Part shown: one piece after another, positions 8,098 to 11,150 of the stretch
How positions within the stretch are numbered: position 1 is the first letter of the stretch
Layout of the letters: every line of letters starts with the position of its first letter
Source: Moritella sp. 5
GTDB lineage: Bacteria > Pseudomonadota > Gammaproteobacteria > Enterobacterales > Moritellaceae
Assembly: GCF_018219455.1 (NCBI RefSeq)
Contig: NZ_CP056122.1
Span: 868,001-932,000, forward strand
Direction: 5' to 3'
DNA: 64,000 nucleotides
Translations under genes and position numbers: made by a program
The notes under the pieces: model-generated
The model's input: the letters and a program-made list of their open reading frames with translations, nothing else
What the model was told of the DNA's origin: nothing
Databases searched by the model: none

Positions 8098-8625
8098 TTA
8101 CTCTATGTTTTGATAAATAGCTAAGTCATTACGCGGACAGGCCTTAAGTAAGTCTGACAATACCTGACCACAGGGTAATTGTAATTGTGGTGCTATCTCT
8201 GCTAATGGGTAGAGTACAAATTCACGCTCTTTCATGCCGTAATGCGGCACAGTTAAACGGGGTGTACTCATGATGTAATCACCGTATAGTAAGATATCTA
8301 AATCGAGGGTTCTTGCTCCCCAATGTTCTTTACGTACACGGCCTTGCTCATTTTCAATCTGCTGTAGCGCATCAAGTAATTCAATTGGCGCTAAACGGGT
8401 GTCGACACAGGCAACCGCATTAATATAATCAGGTTGTTCTTGTGGTCCCATTGGCTTACTTGCATACAGGGATGATACCGAAATAAAACGACTTTCCGTT
8501 AGTGCCTCTAGCGTTGTTATCGCTTCTTTGGCTTGCGCTACTGGATCGGCAAGATTACTGCCGATCGCGATATAACAGCGGGTATAGTCTTGCTTGTTAA
8601 TATCATGTTTTTTTAGAGTTGACAT
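8098..8625 (-). CDS. folK: 2-amino-4-hydroxy-6-hydroxymethyldihydropteridine pyrophosphokinase
   Basis: Transfers pyrophosphate from ATP to 6-hydroxymethyl-7,8-dihydropterin in folate synthesis. The HPPK signature WGARTLDLDILLYGD is present, as is the N-terminal CYIAIGSNL. I place the start at the ATG at 8625 (MSTLKKHDINKQ), 4 nt past the pcnB stop; an in-frame ATG at 8637 would overlap the pcnB end. Either gives about 175-180 residues, close to the ~160 of E. coli FolK plus a short N-terminal tail. Translation is probably coupled to pcnB. Confidence 0.93.
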   Translation of the reverse strand: MSTLKKHDINKQDYTRCYIAIGSNLADPVAQAKEAITTLEALTESRFISVSSLYASKPMGPQEQPDYINAVACVDTRLAPIELLDALQQIENEQGRVRKEHWGARTLDLDILLYGDYIMSTPRLTVPHYGMKEREFVLYPLAEIAPQLQLPCGQVLSDLLKACPRNDLAIYQNIE

Positions 8626-8629
8626 ACTA

Positions 8630-10159
8630 TTAAGCATCACTTTCGTCCACAGGCTTTTTCTTTTTAGCGCGACGAGGACGTGTTTTTTTACCAACAGGTG
8701 CATTTAATTCTTTAATTAAGTTCTGACGGCCAGTGGCATTCGCAGTTTGGTAATCGCGCCACCATTGAGTTACTTCGACTAAGTCGCCACCTTGGATTTC
8801 TGCTCGCATTTCTAAGAAATCAAAACCTGCACGGAATTTTAAGTGTTCGAAGGCTTTTTCTGCGCGTTTGCCTTGGCGGCGTGGTAAACGGCCTTGTAAA
8901 TGCCAAATATCACGGATTGTTGAAGTAAAGCGACGTGGAATTGCAATACTCTTAATTTGGGAATCCAGCGCGTCATTCATTGCTAATAACAAAGCATCGC
9001 TGTAGTTAAGACCACTGTCAATAACGCGTTCTTCAGCCATAGCTTCCAGTGGATACCATAACATTGCGGCATATAAATAAGCGGGCGTTACACGTTTGCC
9101 AGCATTAATACGACGATCAGTATTGTCTAACGCAATTTGGATGAATTTATCACAGTTACTTGAACCGTCTTCATTTTGATACTTGCTAACAAGTGGGAAC
9201 AATGGTTGGAATAAACCATGTTCTTTCATTAGTTTGTAAGTGGCTAAACCGTGACCATTTAAGAATAGTTTTAATGTTTCTTCAAATAAACGGGCTGCGG
9301 GAATACTTTGTAGTAAGTTCGCCATGCGTTTAATTGGTTCCGCTGCATCTGGACTGATCTGCATATCTAGTTTTGCGGAAAAACGTACTGCACGTAACAT
9401 ACGTACTGGATCTTCACGGTAACGAGTCTCTGGATCACCAATTAAACGTAGTTGTTTACTTTGTAAATCGGCAAGGCCGCCAGCAAAGTCATAAACAGCA
9501 CGATCGGCAATGTTGTAGTAAAGTGCATTAACGGTAAAGTCACGACGTTCAGCATCTTCACTGATGGTGCCATAGACGTTATCACGTAACAACATGCCGC
9601 CATCGGACTGCTTTGATGTTTGTTGATTTTGTTCTTTTTCTTTTTCTTCTACGTGATGACCACGGAAGGTTGCAACTTCGATCATGTCACGGCCAAATAA
9701 GATGTGGGCAAGACGAAAGCGACGGCCAACTAAACGGCAGTTATGGAATAATTTTTTGATTTGTTCTGGCTCGGCATTGGTCGCGATATCAAAATCTTTT
9801 GGCTCTTGACCAATAAAAATATCACGCACACCACCCCCGACAAGGTAAGCTTGATAGCCTGACTTGTGTAAACGATAGAGCACTTTTAGGGCGTTTTCAC
9901 TAATTAAGTTATGGTTTATAGGGTGTTGACCCTTCTCCAATTTCAGTTCATTTAATCCCAAATTCTGTACATCTTGTTGTACTACTGGCCCAACTGCAGT
10001 ATTAGAATGCGTATCTTCAGGTGTTTTTTTACTCTGTGCATCACGATCTTTGCGTGTCTTTGACGCTGTTTCAGAGGCCGTTTCTTTCACATCTGATGTT
10101 TGATCTATCTGTTTTCTGCTTAGTATATTTTTACAGAATTTAGTGATTTGAGTGAAAAT
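8630..10159 (-). CDS. pcnB: Poly(A) polymerase I, probably starting at an ATT codon
   Basis: Adds 3' poly(A) tails to RNA and so promotes decay. Nucleotidyltransferase motifs YLVGGGVRD and PKDFDIATNA are intact, followed by the tRNA-nucleotidyltransferase-like fold (RRDFTVNALYYN, GDPETRYREDPVRMLRAVRF) and a basic C-terminal tail. The first ATG/GTG/TTG in frame is a GTG at 10090 without a ribosome site, but the frame stays open upstream and reads FTQITKFCKNILSR, which aligns with the E. coli N-terminus FTRVANFCRKVLSR directly after an ATT at 10157-10159. GAGG lies 6 nt before that ATT. E. coli pcnB is known to start at AUU, so I take ATT as the start, giving 509 residues. Confidence 0.9.
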   Translation of the reverse strand: MFTQITKFCKNILSRKQIDQTSDVKETASETASKTRKDRDAQSKKTPEDTHSNTAVGPVVQQDVQNLGLNELKLEKGQHPINHNLISENALKVLYRLHKSGYQAYLVGGGVRDIFIGQEPKDFDIATNAEPEQIKKLFHNCRLVGRRFRLAHILFGRDMIEVATFRGHHVEEKEKEQNQQTSKQSDGGMLLRDNVYGTISEDAERRDFTVNALYYNIADRAVYDFAGGLADLQSKQLRLIGDPETRYREDPVRMLRAVRFSAKLDMQISPDAAEPIKRMANLLQSIPAARLFEETLKLFLNGHGLATYKLMKEHGLFQPLFPLVSKYQNEDGSSNCDKFIQIALDNTDRRINAGKRVTPAYLYAAMLWYPLEAMAEERVIDSGLNYSDALLLAMNDALDSQIKSIAIPRRFTSTIRDIWHLQGRLPRRQGKRAEKAFEHLKFRAGFDFLEMRAEIQGGDLVEVTQWWRDYQTANATGRQNLIKELNAPVGKKTRPRRAKKKKPVDESDA

Positions 10160-10271
10160 GGTACACCTCGAATTAATAGTAAAATAGGTTGAATTATTTA
10201 TGCCGCCATATAATAGCGCTGCATTGATAAAATGACAAAGATTGTTGACGAAATTTAGTATTAATATTGCC

Positions 10272-11150
10272 TTATTGGCTTAATACGATTGATTTCTGTC
10301 TGGGTAGGTTTTTGACGGACCAATGTTCTGTACCCCATTGTAATAGGTGGGGGATAGATAGATCTTGAAGCTCGTTACACACGGGTAACCCTAAGAATCG
10401 GAATGCATCAATTAAGAGGGCTTTAGCCTGACTGATATCTAAGCCGGGCGCATGATTCTGTTTACTCAATTTAGAGCCATCGGCATTACTGACCAAAGGC
10501 AAATGTAAATATGATGGTGCTGGCTGTGAAAATTGTTCAAACAGGTATAATTGTCGCCCTGTTGGTTCAATTAAATCAGCGCCGCGAACCACTTGGGTGA
10601 TACCTTGGTAAATATCATCCACGACAACGGCAAGATTATAAGCAAAAAGGCCATCTTTACGATGAATAATAAAGTCTTCTGCAGCGAGTGCTTTCTCGAT
10701 ATCTATTTTACCATGTAACTCATCCATAAAATGATTAACTGGCACTGTTGTCGTTACCCGCAAGGCGGCATTATCTGCAGTAAGCTTTTTGTGCTTACAG
10801 TGTCCTTGATAAAAGACCCCTTGTGCTTGGATCTGTTTGCGGGTGCAATGACAGTAGTAGGTTAAACCTTGCTGGTTAAGCTGGGCAATGGCTTCTTGAT
10901 AAGCAGAACTGCGCTGGCTTTGATAGATAACATCACCATCCCAATGTAAACCAAAGGCATCGAGTGTTGTTAAGATATTCGCTGCAGCCCCTGTAATTTC
11001 TCTAGGGGGATCGAGATCTTCAATGCGCACTAACCAAGTACCTTGGTTAGATTTTGCTTGTAAATAGCTGCCAACAGCAGCGATCAGGGAACCAAAATGT
11101 AATGGTCCTGAAGGTGAGGGCGCAAAGCGTCCTACATAGCTATTGGACAT
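10272..11150 (-). CDS. gluQ: Glutamyl-Q tRNA(Asp) synthetase
   Basis: A truncated glutamyl-tRNA synthetase paralogue that attaches glutamate to queuosine in the anticodon of tRNA(Asp). 292 residues, about the size of E. coli GluQ/YadB and lacking the anticodon-binding domain of a full GluRS. Seen: HIGH-type motif in [13 protein letters not shown], zinc-site cysteines in YYCHCTRKQ and later GHC, and a KMSKS-type KLSKQNH. It follows dksA on the same strand, as in E. coli, though a hairpin terminator lies between them, so partial read-through is likely. Confidence 0.95.

Follow-up and report, generated by a model that had tools for sequence, protein, structure and literature searches.

The AUU start codon of Escherichia coli pcnB, the gene of poly(A) polymerase I (PAP I), was reportedly described by Binns and Masters in 2002, as later papers cite it. 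This start helps to keep PAP I low, according to the accessible part of PMC9764084 (citing Binns & Masters 2002), which also describes the E. coli pcnB ribosome site as poor. The accessible sections of PMC11760895 cite the toxicity of excess PAP I, although by its authors' own account the cultures of that study seemed to speak against it. For infC, discrimination by IF3 against the AUU start is stated in the available portion of PMC9410913. The AUU start of pcnB is thus known for E. coli; its conservation over the order, with losses, may be unreported. Our searches of the open-access literature gave no earlier report of this order-wide conservation, and Binns & Masters 2002 may discuss relatives.

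The window (the whole stretch of DNA analysed, 64 000 nucleotides) carries on its minus strand dksA, gluQRS, pcnB and folK, the gene order of E. coli A3 (Table 1). Genes were named by homology, and pcnB by family models. The pcnB product scores 510.1 bits against TIGR01942, above the cutoff of 305.65, and matches the Pfam PolyA_pol, RNA-binding and Arg-rich C-terminal domains (PF01743, PF12627, PF12626), each above cutoff. The stricter PcnB equivalog model, NF008634 (PRK11623), is still the top-scoring model, but its 618.7 bits fall below the cutoff of 702. Judged by these family models the gene is pcnB, though not filed under NF008634. The folK open reading frame as listed (8098–8703) shares 74 nt with the 3′ end of pcnB; the true folK start is probably further in.

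Table 1. Features of the pcnB locus in the window (positions counted from the first nucleotide of the window).
Feature	Positions	Strand	Basis
pcnB CDS (poly(A) polymerase I), read from ATT	8630..10159	-	509 codons + stop; TIGR01942, PF01743, PF12627, PF12626
ATT (AUU), near-certain start codon of pcnB	10157..10159	-	ATT in 11/11 genus genomes; aligned with the E. coli A3 RefSeq CDS start
Shine-Dalgarno-like GAGGTG	10164..10169	-	4 nt before the start codon; sequence and duplex energy
Leader: first 15 codons, M(I)FTQITKFCKNILSR	10115..10159	-	conserved cationic amphipathic N-terminal helix by computation
GTG, first conventional in-frame start, judged not the start	10088..10090	-	no ribosome-site-like match; GTG lost in 3/11
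gluQRS, upstream neighbour of pcnB	10272..11150	-	ORF end 112 nt ahead of ATT; upstream of pcnB in E. coli A3 too

Read on the minus strand from 10170 to 10157, the sequence is C-GAGGTG-TACC-ATT. The pcnB frame is open through ATT (10159–10157) and GTG (10090–10088) down to the stop at 8630, and there is no ATG, GTG or TTG from the upstream stop to GTG 10090. The peptide read from ATT is (I)FTQITKFCKNILSR. An earlier, sequence-only reading of this DNA had proposed an ATT start in a frame that stays open upstream of the GTG, 23 codons before it, with GAGG ending 6 nt ahead of the ATT and an N-terminus that aligns with E. coli PcnB. Each of these points was borne out: a longer match, GAGGTG, ends 4 nt before the ATT, and the peptide read from this codon aligns with FTRVANFC of E. 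coli. The computed duplex energy of this GAGGTG with the 16S tail is −9.8 kcal/mol. The window gene thus combines an AUU at the position aligned with that of E. coli, a frame free of conventional starts up to the upstream stop and a ribosome site at a workable distance. To gauge chance, all positions of the 173 anchored loci of the order (see below) were considered: of 369 187, 154 have GAGGTG at this spacing of 4 nt, and the pcnB start site accounts for 75 of the 154. A search of the family gave one genus with 11 genomes, that of the window, and ATT follows GAGGTG in all 11.

Between 10125 and 10205 (∼ 45 nt upstream to 30 nt downstream of the ATT) the DNA is near-identical in the 11 genus genomes, third codon positions included, a pattern that could reflect constraint acting on the RNA itself. 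In computed folds the start region of the mRNA is about as accessible as elsewhere, neither exceptionally open nor exceptionally closed (mean unpaired 0.50 versus 0.46 in control windows). A start hidden by mRNA structure was rejected, as the folding comparison gave no sign of it. A promoter-like site at 10238–10210 was also rejected; with five matches in the region versus 3.2 in shuffles it is not evidence. Within GAGGTG lies an out-of-frame GTG, which as a mini-ORF closes after at most eight codons in 47 of 76 genes (a raw count with no chance baseline).

Two other starts were weighed. GTG 10090 is the earliest conventional in-frame start, and were it the true one, the conserved stretch above it would be an untranslated leader. 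No ribosome-site-like match was found before this GTG, in agreement with the sequence-only reading. The aligned codon is GTG in eight of the 11 genus genomes, GGG in two and GCA in one. Furthermore, the stretch above aligns across families as a protein motif, behind GAGGTG-N4-ATT, and 12 of the 173 anchored order genes lack any ATG, GTG or TTG from the upstream stop to 28 codons before the conserved core. Loss of the reading frame between ATT and GTG in relatives, which would speak against the ATT, was looked for and not found. GTG 10090 was rejected on its missing ribosome site and its loss within the genus, and as a start we regard it as highly improbable. The other alternative, that translation begins farther upstream in frame and the ATT is an internal isoleucine codon, would be in keeping with the window frame, which has no stop in the 40 codons above the ATT. 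However, this upstream frame is not kept in relatives: a stop lies 17 codons above the ATT in a genome of the same genus (L011), three codons above in one other family (L055) and one codon above in others (L108, L127; the start of L108 is placed to within one codon). ATT is also far commoner at this site than among internal isoleucine codons. A start above the ATT was rejected since the upstream frame is not conserved, and we consider it the least probable of the readings discussed here. On comparative grounds it is close to certain that pcnB starts at the ATT, given ATT in 11/11 genus genomes, the losses of the GTG, the unkept upstream frame, the peptide alignment with E. coli and the CDS of E. 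coli A3. The prediction that automatic annotation would cut 23 residues is correct as frame arithmetic but does not hold in general: in E. coli A3, RefSeq places the start of the pcnB CDS at the ATT, which shows that annotation can retain the extension. Gene callers restricted to ATG, GTG and TTG would lose the conserved N-terminal leader.

A search of the order (295 genomes) gave 283 matches at 1e-60. To span the families, 5′ ends were read in 176 genomes, namely G028 and 175 of the 283, with 108 matched genomes unread. A core motif anchored 173 of the 176 genes, and start assignment, helix analysis and tree are based on these 173 (L052, L167 and L177, without that motif, were left out). In 76 of the 176 pcnB genes, from 11 of 26 families, an in-frame codon follows GAGGTG at a spacing of exactly 4 nt; the set comprises 75 of the 173 anchored genes and L052, and L089, L099 and L140 entered it after the search range was widened. 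The codon itself was not part of the search condition, and it is ATT in 72 genes and ATC in four, with ATG in none and no others. Within these genes, internal isoleucine is encoded by ATT 263, ATC 294 and ATA 32 times (45% ATT), from which ∼ 33 of 76 would be expected to be ATT; the excess at the start has a Fisher p of 9e-19, kinship ignored. The spacer is less conserved, and a pyrimidine (C or T) immediately precedes the start in 76/76. The claim that the codon is kept across a large evolutionary distance thus stands.

A wider assignment relied on a motif for the first residues and on hand-written rules, which shifted the motif call by one codon in families f6, f11, f12, f14 and f20. Starts were assigned in 163 of the 173 genes: ATT 112, ATC 14, ATG 33 (30 of them by a fallback rule), GTG 2, ACT 1 and CTT 1; ten genes have no assigned start. 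For ACT and CTT, the start has probably been misplaced. ATT or ATC accounts for 126 of the 163 assigned starts, in 18 families.

The same pattern is seen among named organisms. GAGGTG-N4 occurs in 34 of 80 named loci, followed by ATT in 31 and ATC in three; the remaining 46 have ATT or ATC behind another site, or ATG, or no clear call. Because some genomes are represented among both named and unnamed loci, the two sets of counts are not additive. E. coli, Aeromonas caviae and Proteus mirabilis have GAGGTG-N4-ATT, the GAGGTG-N4 loci include Shewanella, Oceanisphaera, Tolumonas, Xenorhabdus, Serratia, Citrobacter, Ferrimonas and Schmidhempelia, and an ATC start is found in Photobacterium marinum, Brenneria izbisi and Lonsdalea quercina. 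The alignment suggested by the sequence-only reading, of the window's genus with Shewanella and Vibrio, confirmed a conserved ATT in the genus (11/11) and in Shewanella (GAGGTG-N4-ATT in 4/4) but not in Vibrio, where three of four named loci have ATG and a different N-terminus and V. comitans gave no clear call. The site energies of the three ATG Vibrio loci are −1.7, −3.1 and −5.8 (the last V. sagamiensis). Since the genus and Shewanella keep the ATT and Vibrio does not, the codon is old and widely kept, yet not universal. ATG behind a weak site is seen in three Marinobacter loci, whose N-terminus is basic and of a comparable type. In E. coli, 5374 of 5426 genomes matched; across the 81 nt that surround the start, 5361 of the 5374 show at least 99% identity and 13 show 95–99%; in one of these 13, which was inspected, the difference lies in the spacer and the ATT is intact.

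Some records stood out for other reasons. L287, titled Chryseobacterium sp. 18061, has a Citrobacter-like pcnB start and is probably a mislabelled or contaminated contig. Two pcnB-bearing records of the plasmid collection, L188 (Aeromonas caviae, 4.9 Mb) and L189 (Proteus mirabilis, 4.1 Mb), are, judging by their size, apparently chromosomes that were entered as plasmids.

Outside the order, 46 of 48 genes of the class could be anchored, and eight of the 46 (L182, L200, L202, L206, L209, L215, L224, L225) have no ATG, GTG or TTG from the upstream stop to 28 codons before the conserved core. As read, these genes must use another start codon, barring a start in the following stretch or a sequence error. 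L182 has GGAGGTG ahead of an ATT. Non-AUG pcnB starts may therefore be older than the order.

We propose the following explanation, which we hold with a probability of about 0.87. The GAGGUG ribosome site would pick out the AUU as the start of pcnB. As carried over from E. coli infC, initiator tRNA would pair poorly with AUU and IF3 would reject such complexes, so that few ribosomes commit and a low ceiling is set on PAP I. Initiation would accordingly be weak, and the protein level low, in the window's organism. The arrangement would be old in the order and maintained by purifying selection, and the codons between the AUU and the false GTG start would encode a cationic amphipathic leader helix. 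Judging from the identity of the codon, limitation of PAP I synthesis by IF3-disfavoured initiation is its most likely function.

Selection on the weak start itself has good support, short of proof. A single base change would give AUG, but AUG occurs in none of the 76 GAGGTG-N4 genes, whereas ATC occurs in four. The start could also be real and its weakness unselected, persisting by inertia or through compensation by the ribosome site. AUU has indeed been lost in some lineages: ATG starts are found in most Vibrio-type genes, in family f7 and in three genomes of 1.0–1.2 Mb, mostly with a weak ribosome site, which indicates that AUU is dispensable there. Moreover, the tree (from 125 columns, and poorly resolved) requires no more than about eight switches between AUG and non-AUG starts, and much of the ATT count is therefore explained by common ancestry. 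The ribosome sites bear on both views. The median duplex energy is −9.7 for the 112 ATT genes, −7.05 for the 14 ATC genes and −1.1 for the 33 ATG genes (30 by the fallback rule). Sites of neighbouring genes (gluQRS, panB and dksA, where readable) reach −5 or below in 60% of 25 cases in ATG genomes versus 44% of 73 in ATT/ATC genomes, the best-scoring nearby start being taken, which flatters the neighbours. Moderate sites are present in two f6 genes with ATG and in individual other ATG genes. With kinship removed, the contrast between codon and ribosome site comes down to one independent pair on supported branches (eight on the whole tree) and is not significant. The remark in the accessible text of PMC9764084 that the E. 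coli site is poor conflicts with the strong computed energy of the same GAGGTG, and energy alone may mislead. The trade-off between start codon and ribosome site is a pattern worth testing, not a rule. On balance we find persistence without selection rather improbable and favour a selected weak start. That a codon one base away from AUG has remained AUU or AUC in 18 families offers good evidence from nature that low initiation is what is selected, and the AUU, AUC and AUG lineages form a comparative set for asking why PAP I must be scarce.

The leader motif aligns across families. In the genus the leader has a mean hydrophobic moment of 0.65 (z 2.9 versus shuffles of the same residues) and a net charge of +3. 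A cationic amphipathic helix was computed after the ATT in each of the 18 ATT/ATC families, with family-mean z values of 1.5 to 3.4 versus shuffles and a net charge of about +2 to +7; scores of genes found by the motif are partly selected, as the motif model was trained on the GAGGTG set. The helix is absent from the means of 11 ATG genes of f21 (z −0.35) and of three genes from the 1.0–1.2 Mb genomes of f18 (z −0.79). It is kept in three ATG genes of f20 (z 1.6) and two GTG genes of f14 (z 2.0), so its presence does not depend on the codon alone. The solved structures from E. coli align with the query only from residue 75 onwards and do not cover the leader. A start at the GTG would cut off the codons of this conserved helix. 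A role of the PcnB leader at the membrane or with RNase E is suggested by analogy.

In the genome of the window (G000), infC (locus L253) has an apparent ATA start, 7 nt behind GGAGG. Both E. coli AUU-start genes, pcnB and infC, are thus apparently non-AUG in this genome, with different codons. A search for infC matched in 36 of 37 genomes and returned 30 loci, whose starts, read by eye, appear to be ATT in 19 and ATA in eight, with no clear call in three. G050 and G069 have ATT in infC but ATG in pcnB (pcnB by the fallback rule), so the two starts can change independently. As pcnB and infC are both non-AUG over much of the order, we speculate that they form an old two-gene sensor of initiation stringency. 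Free IF3 and the supply of 30S subunits would set the level of PAP I and couple RNA decay to translation capacity, and the leader helix would put the enzyme at the membrane beside RNase E. We regard this extension as unlikely, if conceivable.

Among described systems the window gene most resembles E. coli pcnB. The two genes are orthologous and share an aligned AUU, GAGGTG at equal distance, an FTRVANFC-type N-terminus and the order dksA-gluQRS-pcnB-folK. They differ in six of the 10 residues after the start and in the linker, which is longer in the window gene (105 codons from the start to the conserved LVGGG, versus 63 or so in a near relative of E. coli). AUU initiation of E. coli pcnB is reported in citing papers, and that of the window gene is predicted from sequence. 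Non-AUG initiation is shared with infC (IF3; AUU or AUA start), which, in the sources as available, feeds back on its own product, whereas pcnB makes no initiation factor. Staphylococcus cvfC1 (AUU) and ccpN (AUA) likewise combine a conserved weak start with an extended Shine-Dalgarno sequence, and there this lowers the yield (PMC13009471, in its accessible part), but they are unrelated genes of another phylum. In Streptomyces sigR, a GTC start is repressed by IF3 (PMC5472188, from the sections available); gene, codon and phylum are different, but a rare start codon again acts as a control point for IF3.
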